Shown one piece after another: positions 5,143 through 11,181 of a stretch of DNA of 64,000 nucleotides (its first letter is position 1; each line of letters opens with the position of its first letter). Below the pieces are notes generated by a model. That model searched no databases. It saw only the letters and a program-made list of their open reading frames with translations, and was not told the DNA's origin. A program made the position numbers and the translations under genes. The stretch is from Solwaraspora sp. WMMD791 (lineage in GTDB: Bacteria > Actinomycetota > Actinomycetes > Mycobacteriales > Micromonosporaceae): assembly GCF_029581195.1 (NCBI RefSeq), contig NZ_CP120737.1:5805001-5869000 (forward strand). Direction: 5' to 3'.

Positions 5143-6561
5143 TTGAAGCGGATAGTGATAATCGGTGGTGGCCCGGCCGGCTACGAGGCGGCCCTGGTCG
5201 CGGCACAACTGCATGCCGAGGTCACGGTCGTCGAGGCCGACGGCGCCGGCGGGGCCTGCGTACTGTCCGACTGCGTCCCGTCCAAGACCTTCATCGCCAG
5301 CTCAGAAGTGGTGACCGGATACCGGGACACCGAGGAGTTCGGCATCGACTCCGAAGGGCTCGACGCCGTGACCGTCGACGCCGCCGCGGTGCACGCCCGG
5401 GTCAAGCGCCTCGCGCTCGCCCAGTCGGCCGACGTGCACAGCAAACTCGTCAAAGCCGGTGTGACGTTCGTCGCCGGCACCGCCCGGCTCGGCGAGGACA
5501 CGCTCGGTCACACCCACCGGGTAATGGTCCGCCCGCATGACGGTGACGCAGAGTACGCGATCGAAGCCTCGACCGTACTGGTCGCCACCGGCGCCACCCC
5601 CCGGCAGCTGCCGACGGCGGTGCCCGACGGCGAACGGATCCTGACCTGGCGCCAGGTCTACGACCTGCCGGAGCTGCCCGAGCACCTGATCGTGGTCGGC
5701 TCCGGTGTGACCGGTGCCGAGTTCGCCAGCGCCTACCTGGCCATGGGGGTGCCGGTCACCCTGGTGTCGAGCCGGGACCGGGTGATGCCGCACGAGGACG
5801 CCGACGCCGCGATGGCGATCGAGCAGGTCTTCCGGGCACGCGGCATGACGATCCTGAACAACTCGCGGGCCGAGGCGGTCACCCGGACCGGCGACGGTGG
5901 TGCGGGCGACGGCGTCGAGGTCAGGCTCGCCGACGGCCGTACGGTGACCGGCTCGCATGCCCTGATCGCCGTCGGTTCGGTGCCCAACACCGCCGACCTG
6001 GGGCTGGCCGAGTACGGAGTCTCCGTCGCGCCCAGCGGCCACGTGCCGGTCGACCGGGTGTCGCGGACCAACGTGCCGGGTATCTACGCCGCCGGCGACT
6101 GTACCGGGGTGCTGCCGCTGGCCAGTGTCGCCGCGATGCAGGGGCGGATCGCGATGTGGCACGCGCTCGGCGAGGCAGTGGTGCCGCTGCGGCTGCGCAC
6201 GGTCGCGGCGAACGTCTTCACCGATCCGGAGCTGGCCACCGTCGGCGTCTCCCAGGACGAGGTCGACGACGGGCGGGTGCAGGCCCGGCAGGTGATGCTG
6301 CCGCTGGCCGGCAACGCCCGGGCCAAGATGGCCGACCTGCGCGACGGCTTCGTCAAGCTGTTCTGCCGCCCGGCCAGTGGGCAGATCATCGGCGGGGTGG
6401 TGGTGGCGCCGAAGGCCAGCGAGTTGATCATGCCGATCACCGTCGCGGTGGAGAACCACATGACGGTCAGTCAGTTGGCGCACACAATCACAATTTATCC
6501 TTCGTTGTCCGGATCAATCGCTGAAGCCGCACGTCAGCTGATGTGGCATGACGAAGAGTAA
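5143..6561 (+). CDS. lpdA: NAD(P)H-quinone dehydrogenase (LpdA type flavoprotein disulfide reductase)
   Basis: A 472-aa homologue of mycobacterial Rv3303c (LpdA), a cytoplasmic FAD enzyme that reduces quinones. The TTG start at 5143 has GGGGAG at 5128-5133. The FAD-binding GGGPAGYEAA is at residues 9-18, the NAD-binding GSGVTGAEFASAY near residue 190 and the second FAD motif YAAGDCTG near residue 320. Unlike Rv3303c, both active-site cysteines of the lipoamide-dehydrogenase CX4C motif are present (GGACVLSDCVPSK). The C-terminal His-Glu dyad is absent: the region reads IYPSLSGSIAEAA. This fits a quinone/NADPH reductase rather than a lipoamide dehydrogenase. Monocistronic. Confidence 0.92.
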   Translation: MKRIVIIGGGPAGYEAALVAAQLHAEVTVVEADGAGGACVLSDCVPSKTFIASSEVVTGYRDTEEFGIDSEGLDAVTVDAAAVHARVKRLALAQSADVHSKLVKAGVTFVAGTARLGEDTLGHTHRVMVRPHDGDAEYAIEASTVLVATGATPRQLPTAVPDGERILTWRQVYDLPELPEHLIVVGSGVTGAEFASAYLAMGVPVTLVSSRDRVMPHEDADAAMAIEQVFRARGMTILNNSRAEAVTRTGDGGAGDGVEVRLADGRTVTGSHALIAVGSVPNTADLGLAEYGVSVAPSGHVPVDRVSRTNVPGIYAAGDCTGVLPLASVAAMQGRIAMWHALGEAVVPLRLRTVAANVFTDPELATVGVSQDEVDDGRVQARQVMLPLAGNARAKMADLRDGFVKLFCRPASGQIIGGVVVAPKASELIMPITVAVENHMTVSQLAHTITIYPSLSGSIAEAARQLMWHDEE

Positions 6562-6813: not shown

Positions 6814-6935
6814 CCCGAGGCTGGCGGACCGCCCGGCCGGGGCGTAGTCGCTGCTGCGGACACCGGCGTACCGTCGCCGTTAGAGCTCCGGCCGGCGTGG
6901 TACCCGGCCCCCAGCCCTCGGGCGGGAGGGACAGC

Positions 6936-8147
6936 ATGAACATCGGAGAGAACCTCGCGAGGAAGCGGCGACGGGCAGGCCTCACCCAGGAAGGACTTGC
7001 CGAGCGCAGCGGCGTGAGCATCTCAGTCATTCGAAAGCTGGAACGCGGCGACCGAGACTCCGCCTCGCTGCCGACACTGCGCAGCCTGGCAACCGCCCTC
7101 GGCGTGACCACAGTCGAGTTGTTTCGCCCCACTCCGACCCAACTGCAGCCGCCCATCGACGATCGCAGCGACCTCTACCTCATTCGTCGGGCGCTGCAGC
7201 CGGCCAGAACCGCCGACGGTGATCTGATTACCCTGGCAGACGACGTGCAGCCTGGTGCTGACGACGTCGCCGATTCCGTTCGTGAGATCAGCGGGTTGTT
7301 CCGGGACAGCGACTACGCCGGTGCAGTCGCCGCATTGCCCACCGCTATCAGCCATGCCCGCGCCGCAGTGGCCGAAGCCGACGAACCCAGCCGACCTGGC
7401 GTATGGGGTCAGCTGGCGCAGGTCTACCAGACCGCCGCGTTGGTACTGATCCAGCTCCGTAAAGACGACCTGGCCTACCATGCGCTCGGCTTGGCCATGG
7501 ACGCCGGCCGCCGAGCCGGCGACGACGTCCTCACAGCCTCTGTGGTCTGTAGTGAAGGATGGCTGCTCACCAGGCAGGCTCGATTCGACGAGGCCGAGCG
7601 TGCCGCGCTCGTGACCGCCGAAGCGATCGAGCCCAGGATGTCCAGGTCGCCAGCCAGCCAGGTTGCCGTATGGGGGTGGCTGAACCTCGGTGCGGCCGCA
7701 GCGGCCACTCGCAACAATCGGATGGACGTGGCCGCCGACTCCCTGCGTCGGGCTCACGCGTCCGCACACGTCGCCGCCGGCCACGTACCACCGCGTGTAG
7801 CGCACTGGACGACCTTCGCACCAGCGGTGGTGGCCATGCGTGAGGTGGAACTGGCGATGGTCGTCGGCGACGCCGGCCGCGCAGCCGAGGTGGCGCGTAC
7901 CGTCCCGCCGGGTGCGCGTCCGGCCGTGACCTACCAGCGGTTCCGGCTGGACGTCGCTGCCGCCGCACTCGACCGACGCAGACGTGACGAGGCGTTGGCG
8001 GTGCTGCTGCGGTTGCGGGAGTCTGCGCCAGAGTGGCTGCGCTACCAGCGGTACGCCCAGCGCCTCGTCGAGCGTCTCCTGCACGCCCGGTCCCGCGCAG
8101 TGCAGCCTGAACTGCGCGCCCTAGCGGACTTCCTCAACATCGCCTGA
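6936..8147 (+). CDS. XRE-family transcriptional regulator with helical repeat domain
   Basis: 403 aa. The N-terminal Cro/C1 helix-turn-helix spans residues 5-62 (GENLARKRRRAGLTQEGLAE ... LERGDRDSAS). It is followed by ~330 residues of TPR-like helical repeats (for example the WGQLAQVYQTAALVLIQLRKDD region). The ATG at 6936 has GGGAGGG 5 nt upstream. Such regulators in filamentous actinomycetes often sense a small partner protein or peptide through the helical repeats. Here the regulator is followed by three coupled small genes (8435-9329), its most likely partners or targets; that link is inference. Confidence 0.85.
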   Translation: MNIGENLARKRRRAGLTQEGLAERSGVSISVIRKLERGDRDSASLPTLRSLATALGVTTVELFRPTPTQLQPPIDDRSDLYLIRRALQPARTADGDLITLADDVQPGADDVADSVREISGLFRDSDYAGAVAALPTAISHARAAVAEADEPSRPGVWGQLAQVYQTAALVLIQLRKDDLAYHALGLAMDAGRRAGDDVLTASVVCSEGWLLTRQARFDEAERAALVTAEAIEPRMSRSPASQVAVWGWLNLGAAAAATRNNRMDVAADSLRRAHASAHVAAGHVPPRVAHWTTFAPAVVAMREVELAMVVGDAGRAAEVARTVPPGARPAVTYQRFRLDVAAAALDRRRRDEALAVLLRLRESAPEWLRYQRYAQRLVERLLHARSRAVQPELRALADFLNIA

Positions 8148-8434
8148 ACAGGCCAACTACCCCCTATTGGGTCAGTTCACGTCGGCGTGCCCACCGGAAT
8201 GCCACATCCTGCACATGTCGATCATCGCAGTTGAGTGACATGTTGTGTGCGCAGCGCAGCTGATGCCTGATCGTCACCGTGATCGGTACAAAGCGCGTTG
8301 CGCCCGTCATGGCCCGGTCCTGTTTCGGTTCCAGCGCGCGGATCCGCGGGGCCGGGCCGTAGATCGGCGGCGGTCCGGCGCGGAACCCCCGTGCCCGCCG
8401 GGCCGCCGCCCCCTTCGACTCGAGGAGCGCGCAG
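8148..8434 (+). other. non-coding interval ahead of the small-gene cassette
   Basis: 287 bp without a supportable gene. It contains two copies of the palindrome ACATGT (about 8213 and 8238) separated by roughly 20 bp, and a GATC-N8-GATC dyad near 8270. These are candidate operator elements for the cassette. No confident -35/-10 pair was identified. Confidence 0.3.
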
Positions 8435-8605
8435 ATGATCGGGAAGTGGTTCCTGCGACCCGGCACGGTCGACGTCGTTCGGCCGATGCCCGGCCACCGC
8501 CGGTACGCCGACCAGCCCGCCCGGCCGGGCACCGGCCGGCCGGCGACCCGTACCGACCGGGCCGAGCGGCGCGGCGGCAACGCCGGCCGGCACTACCTGC
8601 GGTGA
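8435..8605 (+). CDS. small basic protein of the XRE/PWPC cassette
   Basis: A 56-aa Arg-rich protein (begins MIGKWFLRPGTVDVVRPMPGH). Despite its size it is well supported: GAGGAG lies 7 nt before the ATG, and its TGA overlaps the GTG of the next gene in a GTGA arrangement typical of translational coupling. Function unknown. No membrane segment or signal peptide. It is probably the first gene of a three-gene transcript downstream of the XRE regulator. Confidence 0.6.
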   Translation: MIGKWFLRPGTVDVVRPMPGHRRYADQPARPGTGRPATRTDRAERRGGNAGRHYLR

Positions 8606-8856
8606 AGGTGCGGCCCGGGGTGGTGCACACGCCGCACCGCCCGTCCTGGATGTGCGCGGCCTGCCCGGTGGACACGCCCTGGCCGTGCCCACCGGCCCGG
8701 ATTCAACTTGCCGAGGCGTACGCGGGCGAGCCCATCGCGCTCTCGGTCGACATCGGCGAGATGCTCCCCATGGCCGCCGAGGAGGCCGGCGTCACCGACC
8801 CGGCCGAACTGTACGAGCGCTTCGTGTCCTGGACCTGGATCGGGTCGGCGACGTGA
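8602..8856 (+). CDS. small Cys-motif protein A (PWPC family)
   Basis: 84 aa. The core W-M-C-A-A-C-x5-PWPCPPAR gives three cysteines in a C-x2-C-x8-C arrangement, suggestive of metal binding. A helical C-terminal half follows (AEAYAGEPIALSVDIGEMLPMAAEEA ... LYERFVSWTW). The GTG start overlaps the preceding stop, and its own TGA overlaps the next GTG. It is clearly paralogous to the C-terminal half of the next protein. I recall such small proteins being mislabelled in databases, but no enzymatic motif is visible. Function unknown. Confidence 0.65.
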   Translation: MKVRPGVVHTPHRPSWMCAACPVDTPWPCPPARIQLAEAYAGEPIALSVDIGEMLPMAAEEAGVTDPAELYERFVSWTWIGSAT

Positions 8857-9329
8857 CCGCGATGGACGACGGGCCGGTCACCGGCCGGGACCTCGACGAC
8901 GCCGCCTGCGCGGCCCTCGCGGCCCACGACGCAGGCCGGTTCTGCCACACCGGATGCCCCGGCACCCCCGACTGCCCACAGCTGGCCTGGGCTCGCCGCC
9001 ATCACGGCCTCGGCGGGCCACAGCGGCCGTCCTGGACGTGCACGGTCTGCCCGGCCGGCACACCGTGGCCGTGCCCGCCCGCACGGGCCGCACTCGTCGA
9101 CGCGTACGCCGGTGACCGGCTCCGGATGGTCGTCGAATTGGCCACGATGATGCAGACCGCGCTGGCCGAGACCGGCGAGGACGGCGGCATGCTGTACGAG
9201 CGGTTCGTCCTCTGGACGCGCACGCGTGGGCGACAGCCAGGTGGATCTCGGCCAGCCGACGGTGAGCATCCGATGCTCGGCCCTGCGACGCCGCCCTCTC
9301 CGCCGTGGTGGCACGGCCGGCGGATCTGA
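8853..9329 (+). CDS. small Cys-motif protein B (PWPC family)
   Basis: 158 aa. An N-terminal segment with its own cysteine cluster (FCHTGCPGTPDCPQ) precedes the same core seen in the upstream protein: SWTCTVCPAGTPWPCPPAR, then AYAGD...LYERFVLWTR. The C-terminal ~35 residues are Pro/Gly-rich and may be poorly conserved. GTG at 8853 overlaps the stop of the preceding gene (GTGA); an internal ATG at 8862 is an alternative start. The two PWPC genes look like a tandem duplication with divergence. Function unknown; a metal-binding or regulatory partner role is inference. Confidence 0.68.
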   Translation: MTAMDDGPVTGRDLDDAACAALAAHDAGRFCHTGCPGTPDCPQLAWARRHHGLGGPQRPSWTCTVCPAGTPWPCPPARAALVDAYAGDRLRMVVELATMMQTALAETGEDGGMLYERFVLWTRTRGRQPGGSRPADGEHPMLGPATPPSPPWWHGRRI

Positions 9330-9567: not shown

Positions 9568-11181
9568 ATGGCCGATCTGTTCGAGGACTACCACCTCGGC
9601 CCCGGCTGGGACGAGATGTTCGGCGAGCCCGGCATGCCCCGGGAGACCTACGAGGCGCTGCACGCCACCCTGCAGCCGCTGTCCAGCGCCGAGCTGGGGG
9701 TGCGCGCCGACGTCCTCGCCCGGGCCTTCCTCGATCAGGGCATCACCTTCGCGCTCAAGGGCGTCGAGCGGCCGTTCCCGCTGGACATCGTGCCCCGGAT
9801 CATCGCCGCCGACCAGTGGCGCACCGTCTCGGCCGGGGTCGCCCAGCGGGTACGCGCGTTGGAGGCGTTCCTGGCCGACATCTACGGCCCGGCCCGGGTG
9901 CTCGTCGACGGCATCGTGCCCCGCCGGCTGGTGGTGACCAGCGCGCACTTCCACCGGGAGGCGGCCGGCATCGTGCCGCACAACGGGGTCCGCATCCACG
10001 TCGCCGGGGTCGACCTGATCCGCGACGAGCAGGGCACCTTCCGGGTCCTGGAGGACAACGTACGGGTTCCCTCCGGGGTCAGTTACGTGATGGAGAACCG
10101 GCGGGCGATGGCCCACGTACTGCCGGAGGTCTTCGCCTCGACCCGGATCCAGCCGGTGGAGTCCTACCCGGCGCAACTGCTGCGGGCGCTGCGGGCCGCC
10201 GCCCCGGTCGGCGTCGCCGACCCGACGGTCGTCGTGCTCACTCCCGGGGTGCACAACTCGGCCTACTTCGAGCACGCGCTGCTGGCCCGGGAGATGGGCG
10301 TCGAGCTGGTCGAGGGTCGTGATCTGGTCTGCGTCGGCAACGAGGTCGCGATGCGTACCACCGGCGGCGAGCAGCGGGTCGACGTGATCTACCGGCGCAT
10401 CGACGACGACTTCCTCGACCCGGTGCATTTCCGGGCCGACTCGGTGCTCGGCGTCGCCGGGCTGCTCAACGCCGCCCGCGCCGGCCGGGTCACCATCGCC
10501 AACGCGGTCGGCAACGGCGTCGCCGACGACAAGCTGCTCTACACGTACGTGCCGGAGCTGATCCGCTACTACCTGGCCGAGGAGCCGATCCTGCCCAATG
10601 TCGAGACGTACCGCCTCGACGACGGCCCGGACGTGCTCGCTCACGTCCTCGACCGGCTCGACCAACTGGTACTCAAGCCGGTCGACGGCTCCGGCGGTGC
10701 CGGCATCGTGATCGGTTCGCAGGCCAGTGACGAGGAGCTGGCCCGGGTCCGGGAGCAGATCGTCTTCGACCCGCGTGGCTGGATCGCCCAGCGGGAGGTG
10801 GCCCTGTCGATGGTGCCGACCCTGGTCGGCAACCGGCTGCGGGCCCGGCACGTCGACCTGCGGCCGTTCGCGGTCAACGACGGCGAACGGGTCTGGGTGC
10901 TGCCCGGCGGCCTGACCCGGGTGGCGTTGCCCGAAGGCGCGCTGGTCGTCAACTCCAGCCAGGGCGGCGGCTCGAAGGACACCTGGATCCTGGCGTCGCC
11001 GACCGCGACCCCGCATCCGGACGACGCGCCGGTGCTGGCCGAGCTGACCGTCAGCGGGGTCGACCCGGTGCCGGCGGCACCCACCCCGGATCCGGGTCCG
11101 GGCGCCGCCGCGACCTCCGCACAGCAGCAGCAACAGCAACAACAGGAGCAACGGGTACGCGGGGAGGACGGTCGATGCTGA
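9568..11181 (+). CDS. circularly permuted type 2 ATP-grasp protein
   Basis: A 537-aa homologue of Rv2411c (DUF404/DUF407). ATP-grasp features include VLEDNVRVPSGVSYV near residue 155, LLYTYVPELIRYY, and LKPVDGSGGAGIVIG near residue 370. The enzyme is expected to activate a carboxylate with ATP, perhaps ligating a peptide or amine. The C-terminus carries a low-complexity Gln run (AQQQQQQQQEQ). Its stop lies inside the next gene's start (7-nt overlap), so the trio ATP-grasp / alpha-E / transglutaminase is co-translated, as in other actinobacteria where it is thought to build a modified peptide or amide product. Confidence 0.9.
   Translation: MADLFEDYHLGPGWDEMFGEPGMPRETYEALHATLQPLSSAELGVRADVLARAFLDQGITFALKGVERPFPLDIVPRIIAADQWRTVSAGVAQRVRALEAFLADIYGPARVLVDGIVPRRLVVTSAHFHREAAGIVPHNGVRIHVAGVDLIRDEQGTFRVLEDNVRVPSGVSYVMENRRAMAHVLPEVFASTRIQPVESYPAQLLRALRAAAPVGVADPTVVVLTPGVHNSAYFEHALLAREMGVELVEGRDLVCVGNEVAMRTTGGEQRVDVIYRRIDDDFLDPVHFRADSVLGVAGLLNAARAGRVTIANAVGNGVADDKLLYTYVPELIRYYLAEEPILPNVETYRLDDGPDVLAHVLDRLDQLVLKPVDGSGGAGIVIGSQASDEELARVREQIVFDPRGWIAQREVALSMVPTLVGNRLRARHVDLRPFAVNDGERVWVLPGGLTRVALPEGALVVNSSQGGGSKDTWILASPTATPHPDDAPVLAELTVSGVDPVPAAPTPDPGPGAAATSAQQQQQQQQEQRVRGEDGRC

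Follow-up and report, generated by a model that had tools for sequence, protein, structure and literature searches.

WhiB-like proteins are small cysteine-containing proteins of actinomycetes that are linked to regulation, and specificity-exchange loci, such as hsdS and the repressor swaps of phages, hold a conserved frame in which the specificity gene is swapped. RRNPP receptors (ComR, PlcR, Rap, PrgX, NprR) join an N-terminal helix–turn–helix (HTH) domain to a tetratricopeptide repeat (TPR)-like C-terminus in about 400 aa and lie beside a small open reading frame (ORF); such systems (PMC10075063) are expected to have a receptor of 250–500 aa and an adjacent propeptide of 10–100 aa exported by Sec or PptAB. 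Nearest by layout to the locus reported here are the XRE-DUF397 pairs of Streptomyces (Scr1/Scr2, WhiJ type; PMC10364602), with which it has in common an XRE gene adjoining a small-protein gene, many copies per genome and an actinomycete host. This locus lies in a 64,000-nucleotide stretch of Solwaraspora sp. WMMD791 (contig NZ_CP120737.1, positions 5,805,001 to 5,869,000; hereafter the window, in whose own numbering its positions are given) and comprises an XRE regulator gene followed by three small coupled genes. Our favored reading, to which we give an even chance, is that the window holds one member of a set of regulatory cassettes scattered over the genome, in which the input can be exchanged and the output stays constant: a leader, a 56-aa peptide (GKWF), a cysteine-motif protein (PWPC) and normally a second XRE regulator (XRE-B) form the constant unit, and the XRE regulator encoded upstream (XRE-A) is the exchangeable part. 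The cassette suggests a type of gene switch not studied before, and it defines three small-protein families, GKWF, PWPC and CHTGC, tied to actinomycete transcription regulators, of which we found no description; a literature search by title or abstract returned no paper on the GKWF-PWPC cassette.

All parts of the window locus are on the forward strand. A promoter-like motif, GTACCGTC (6868–6875), picked out by eye among XRE-A upstream regions, precedes the XRE-A gene (6936–8147), which encodes a 403-aa regulator with an HTH domain and a predicted helical (TPR-like) part. The 287-bp gap that follows holds a leader with two hairpins, the first (8311–8358; single-sequence folds and by-eye alignment) of a second sequence type, that of the CHTGC cassettes introduced below, and the second (8366–8410) of 14 pairs, and then a GAGGAG ribosome binding site read from the sequence (8422–8427). 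Downstream come the GKWF gene (8435–8605; ATG start, 56 aa, isoelectric point 11.9, C-terminus GGNAGRHYLR; alignment A1), PWPC1 (8602–8856; GTG start, 84 aa, with a His ahead of a three-Cys core; alignment A3, with matches in the genome and genus) and a 158-aa gene (8853–9329; GTG start, seven Cys) in which a CHTGC module is fused to a second PWPC core, PWPC2; two 4-nt GTGA stop/start overlaps join the three. The first-pass annotation had described these three small ORFs, with both overlaps and the GAGGAG site, behind an XRE gene, and the coordinates agree. It had rightly taken the two larger proteins for tandem paralogues and had noted a second cysteine cluster in the larger one, which is CHTGCPGTPDC, an additional N-terminal module beyond the PWPC core. 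LYERFV-WT and PWPCPPAR are indeed in both proteins, but the spacing is W-x-C-x2-C-x4-PWPCPPAR and not x5 as first written. New with respect to that annotation are the two-hairpin leader in the gap and the XRE-B gene that usually follows PWPC and is absent in the window.

Seven genomes of the genus supplied 35 stretches surrounding matches to GKWF or PWPC, which we annotated with profiles; four come from the window's own genome, G000 (L numbers denote loci or stretches, G numbers genomes). We excluded nine more near-identical matches in G003, which lie on different contigs or at the opposite contig end; this assembly has ten near-identical cassette copies, on contigs C2–C8, C10 and both ends of chromosome contig C9, which are probably assembly redundancy rather than real copies. 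We counted as cassettes the 30 stretches with a near full-length GKWF sequence (E < 1e-25), thereby dropping two partial ones (L109, L123) and three divergent ones (L108, L113, L122), the latter with the order PWPC, GKWF-like, XRE. The cassettes run XRE-A (where present), hairpin leader, 56-aa GKWF, PWPC, third gene. PWPC follows GKWF in 30/30, and a co-oriented XRE-A gene ends 186–302 bp upstream in 25/30, being absent in L101, L104, L129, L130 and L131; the third slot is taken by XRE-B in 23 and by the CHTGC module, the window's type, in seven, with no overlap and no remainder. GKWF and PWPC overlap by 4 nt in 27 of the 28 loci scored, the miss being L104 (L118 was left out beforehand and L130 was unmatched by the pattern), and an XRE-B start candidate sits at a 4-nt overlap in 16/16 loci with the search pattern, which was not found in six XRE-B loci. 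XRE and small gene are adjacent, as in the XRE-DUF397 pairs, but with the gap upstream and, in 23 of the 30, XRE-B downstream; the present cassette differs further in its Cys-motif small protein, its extra 56-aa peptide and leader and its usually two helical-repeat XRE genes, while the window small proteins match no DUF397 model (Pfam up to E 1) and the window XRE lacks a DUF5753 C-terminal domain. The resemblance to XRE plus small-partner switches of actinomycetes that had been proposed for the window is half right: the small-partner cassette is real, but the upstream XRE had been taken for the partner, and the usual translationally coupled regulator is XRE-B downstream. In the window XRE-B is replaced in its slot by the CHTGC-PWPC2 fusion, so that this copy has small partners and no second regulator. 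Cassettes are clustered within about 16 to 46 kb at L105/L106 (G004) and L126/L127/L128 (G001).

By the homology of their flanks the loci group into nine chromosomal sites (L115/L128, L130/L131, L129, L132 and the divergent L108, L113 and L122 being assigned by one flank only), and two of these, the window's included, are occupied in 7/7 genomes, one copy (L109) decaying. At 75% identity the 27 XRE-A proteins (25 plus those of L109 and L123) make up nine classes. Among same-site pairs, 13 of 51 belong to one class and 38 to different classes, the latter being 27–42% identical or without blastp hit at sites 1–4, and in 19 pairs members of one class occupy different sites, in different genomes. 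In all eight such same-class pairs compared, alignment extends from about −1.4 to −1.6 kb through +1.5 to +1.7 kb of the GKWF start, and the flanks within 6 kb do not align beyond short cross-matches; a ninth pair (L117/L119), related only at 45%, aligns from −238. In most of 12 same-site pairs of different class the flanks align, XRE-A does not, and alignment returns at the leader; the exceptions are the L132 pairs, which have no flank match within 6 kb, and L128/L115, which has only a short one. The clearest exchange is seen in L101/L133, where flanks and core are 94% alike and the XRE-A stretch alone differs, L101 having no XRE-A. Mean identity between copies is 30% for XRE-A (HTH 39%) versus 73% for XRE-B (HTH 88%). 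These loci form a class in which one regulator gives way at a fixed site to a highly divergent one and its partners are retained; unlike in hsdS or phage repressor swaps, what is swapped is the gene for a TPR-like transcription regulator, and a second regulator usually belongs to the frame.

How such a cassette might work can be sketched as follows. XRE-A would sense a ligand via its TPR-like domain and bind its own operator in the gap ahead of the operon, and would thereby set transcription of a structured mRNA for the basic 56-aa peptide, PWPC and usually XRE-B. PWPC, with its Cys motif probably zinc-binding, may act as a small protein partner of HTH regulators, by analogy with the role proposed for DUF397 proteins and their XRE neighbors. 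XRE-B differs little from copy to copy in its DNA-binding domain, and for that reason all the cassettes of a genome would act on shared target genes, each XRE-A supplying a different input to the common output. That the arrangement amounts to modular signal input, chromosomal sites with the same output unit receiving different TPR-type XRE sensors, we regard as tentative and rather unlikely. If it holds, the species changes what the switch listens to, not what it says, and the cassette would be an actinomycete counterpart of peptide-receptor signaling with swappable receptors; if the inputs are signals, it would offer a natural system for rewiring sensing and a direct way to test which role the small partners of XRE regulators play in actinomycetes.

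That a unit of about 3 kb aligns between different sites without its flanks would suit a mobile or defense-like cassette, selected for its spread or for immunity to mobile DNA, with the regulators as specificity alleles, and same-site replacement and second leader copies in L112 and L119, which we read as relics of succession, fit such an element as well. Homologous recombination between related strains would give the same pattern, however; no recombinase or terminal repeat is known here, none having been searched for, and matches of XRE-A and XRE-B in PADLOC extend little beyond the HTH, with none for the small proteins. A phage or plasmid origin, tried with tblastn of the 158-aa protein alone, was rejected with zero matches in phage or plasmid collections. 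We consider the mobile or defense reading unlikely. Integron-like recombination at the hairpins, suggested by alignment edges there (about −130 and −77), was also dropped: the edges are uninformative on the crossover because the cassettes share sequence from them onward. A clean empty site was not obtained at site 4, where G000 keeps an XRE-B relic (L192, about 6370–6553, 77% like XRE-B), the cassette having apparently been lost by deletion; in G001, G003 and G004 right-flank homology at this site resumes at about the XRE-B stop and the left side differs. At site 7 a good match to the flank gene beyond G000 was seen in G003 alone, at 73%.

Among the 27 XRE-A examined, no genome of the seven holds two genes of the same class (zero pairs; permutation mean 3.82, P 0.011), an exclusion that is suggestive and not firm, since shuffling within sites expects 1.83 (P 0.096). 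It is what might be seen if the cassettes were toxin–antitoxin loci, GKWF or PWPC being toxic and neutralized by XRE, and were kept in genomes in that way, and the multicopy, patchy, exchanged distribution and the coupling of small genes with XRE have the same flavor. GKWF is nevertheless open where a same-strand XRE-A is absent (L101, L129), where XRE-B is absent (the seven CHTGC cassettes) and where both are (L131), and an antitoxin role should not allow this; moreover, DUF397 proteins, of similar layout, were nontoxic on overexpression in S. coelicolor (PMC10364602). A toxin–antitoxin function is thus, in our estimate, a shade less probable still than a mobile or defense role.

The window XRE-A carries an HTH_3/HTH_31 domain (HTH_3 E 4.7e-13) and matches phrog_5823 over residues 1–401 (E 2.9e-101), a family matched near full length by both XRE-A and one XRE-B. 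Pfam returned only HTH families and DUF5997 at E 0.067 for it, and no TPR family at E 0.01; TPR_12 was found in 5 of 27 XRE-A/XRE-B members. A low-confidence single-sequence structure model (predicted local distance difference test, pLDDT, 60.7) finds ComR, PlcR, Rap and PrgX among the top Foldseek hits and supports a TPR-like sensor domain, no function being implied. This likeness, which includes NprR, invites an RRNPP-like peptide signaling reading, with GKWF as propeptide, its very conserved C-terminus (GGNAGRHYLP) as signal, the XRE-TPR proteins as receptors and PWPC aiding maturation or forming a second output. The 403 aa of XRE-A are within the receptor range and the adjacent 56-aa gene, 287 bp downstream, is within that of the propeptide. 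GKWF, however, is highly polar (grand average of hydropathy −1.14, isoelectric point 11.9) and by eye has no hydrophobic stretch that would serve export, so that Sec or PptAB transport is not apparent; its tail is constant across XRE-A classes, unlike in cognate pheromone–receptor pairs, and the TPR likeness itself stems from a weak model. The actinomycete host, the further cassette genes and the lack of covariation of peptide with upstream receptor also set the cassette apart from RRNPP systems, and cognate XRE-A/GKWF pairing was rejected on the independence of GKWF tails from XRE-A class. RRNPP-like signaling therefore strikes us as improbable, if less so than the mobile and toxin–antitoxin alternatives.

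In the favored reading of a constant output unit, the leader is its first part. Both its hairpins are GC-rich, and hairpin 2 is kept in all 30 cassettes, with 99.3% of 419 cells paired over its 14 pairs versus at most 61.9% for slid partners, and none of 500 shuffles reaches the observed pairing percentage or covariation score. Where it varies, G-U and G-C pairs mostly replace each other, a pattern more in keeping with RNA than with a DNA palindrome. By-eye alignment shows that L101 and L129 have lost hairpin 1 and that L114, L115 and L133 have it in altered form, and also that one leader type is common to the seven CHTGC cassettes and another to the remaining ones. The leader model matches the window at 8312–8439 (E 2e-12), and a search of the leader against Rfam matched no family.

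The small ORFs are not chance, because the 158-aa protein is matched nine times within its own genome, by itself, by the 84-aa gene and at seven further places; it has matches in 7/7 genomes of the genus and a 94% identical orthologue in G005. Among 150 genomes of the order, from 43 genera, the PWPC profile (A3) matches 22 genomes in three genera: 20 belong to one genus (6–26 matches each), one to another, and the last is the window's own. The GKWF profile finds matches in 8 of the 101 genomes of the family covered: six belong to the window's genus, and the other two matches, L047 and L048, are weak, come from other genera and have no cassette in the stretches fetched, for which reason GKWF seems restricted to the genus within this sample; G001, the seventh genus genome, is outside this profile table yet holds GKWF copies. 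Alignment A1 of 16 GKWF sequences has 27 invariant columns, and the 19 rows of A3 give a PWPC core H..RPxWxCxxC(x3-5)WPC with RFxxW, the aligned His of the window's PWPC2 being off the usual spacing. Metal binding by these proteins is putative, the conserved Cys and His residues being what suggests it. PWPC has a three-Cys core, C-x2-C-x7-C with WPC, unlike WhiB-like proteins, and no Pfam WhiB match up to E 1. That the Cys-motif family is uncharacterized, as first proposed, is borne out: a Pfam scan of the three small window proteins gave no match up to E 1, NCBIfam gave two chance-level rows (E 0.14 and 0.16, both for the 158-aa protein), and a known enzyme or domain for PWPC was sought with no usable match in Pfam, NCBIfam, PHROGs, PADLOC, PDB sequences or PDB folds. 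The PWPC model (two short strands and three helices, pLDDT 83.8) was without match in the PDB fold search, an empty result that is no proof of a new fold. Codon comparison shows the small genes to be under purifying selection, with median ratios of nonsynonymous to synonymous substitution of 0.276 for GKWF (29 sequences), 0.207 for PWPC (28) and, for XRE-B, 0.343 (15). These ratios, together with the invariant succession of GKWF and PWPC and an XRE link in a second genus (see below), speak against ordinary paralogous expansion of an XRE cluster under relaxed constraint, its small genes being housekeeping zinc or redox proteins unrelated to the regulators, which the decaying cassettes L104, L109, L118 and L123 and the site 4 relic in G000 might otherwise recommend; we hold this to be very unlikely.

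With respect to regulatory DNA, GTACCGTC, which was chosen by eye from the same upstream regions that were then scored, occurs within 1 mismatch in 23/27 XRE-A upstream regions versus 39/352 control upstream regions (Fisher 1.7e-16). The gap between XRE-A and GKWF carries a palindrome TGTACC-N3-GGTACA in class b (5/5) and TCACT-N3-AGTGA in class a (3/3). Class b XRE-A genes (L133, L114, L105) also have a long inverted repeat, GGTAGAGGC ... GCCTCTACC, immediately before the start codon.

Several observations weigh against an exchangeable-input, constant-output cassette. No gap palindrome was found in classes c and f and none consistent in the window's class w, and palindromes of arm 6 or more are only modestly above shuffles (10/27 vs 3.7). 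Hairpin 2 shows two-sided change in one of its 14 pairs, equaled by shuffles, and six pairs never vary. The XRE-A model is poor, its best Foldseek E being 2.1e-3 and none at or below 0.001, and Rap and NprR score about Z 14–16 on it, level with the unrelated TPR protein LGN. Some parts are broken: L104 has a frameshift, L118 a TAG stop in GKWF, L106 a short XRE-B and L112 a cut PWPC. Identity of the GKWF/PWPC core is 0.812 for same-class pairs at different sites versus 0.799 for pairs that differ in class and site; GKWF and PWPC do not track XRE-A class, so no specific pairing of XRE-A with its partners is visible. Lastly, an XRE HTH lies within ±1.5 kb in only 9 of the 28 best-scoring PWPC loci outside the window's genus (L072–L100 without L093, in stretches of ±1.5 kb).

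A further 20 PWPC matches, hand-picked from large contigs of a second genus, gave a different picture, with an XRE gene within 1.5 kb in 11/20 and within 2.5 kb in 14/20, versus 0/20 control regions of the same genomes offset by about 0.5 Mb (Fisher 1.5e-4 and 3.3e-6, respectively). The six loci without XRE have as neighbors GntR (L139, L154, L156), a subthreshold HTH_17 (L153), DUF397 (L141) and an unassigned small ORF (L152), the controls having been searched for XRE and not for GntR, HTH_17 or DUF397. The proposed link of PWPC to XRE regulators thus stands for the window's genus and for this second one, although no XRE gene was found within the distances searched at some PWPC homologues, among them most of the first outside sample. 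In the second genus PWPC also lies beside XRE-DUF397-like pairs, recognized by eye, in L148 and L149.

Other small genes adjoin PWPC as well. In another genus a second small Cys family, of RRHRPVWSWRRWRRICRCGAELPCR...RGHWP type, directly precedes it in several loci (L085, 1885–2070; L148, 3568–3756; L145, 3766–4149; L144, 4433–4840), the L148 member having no Pfam match. Small basic proteins with the motif LTPAQ-WRANGGRW lie beside PWPC in another genus (L080, 1892–2227; L147, 4154–4423) and may be counterparts of the GKWF peptide. Divergent PWPC genes in L006, L007, L078 and L039 are adjoined by short ORFs whose products have a hydrophobic N-terminus and carry WCPxCGxTLxCxxC, in L039 as a shorter version. 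The window cassette itself lies between a pyridine-nucleotide oxidoreductase gene and a CP-ATP-grasp gene, the latter on its 3′ side and encoding a protein with a glutamine run near its C-terminus (about 11115–11150).

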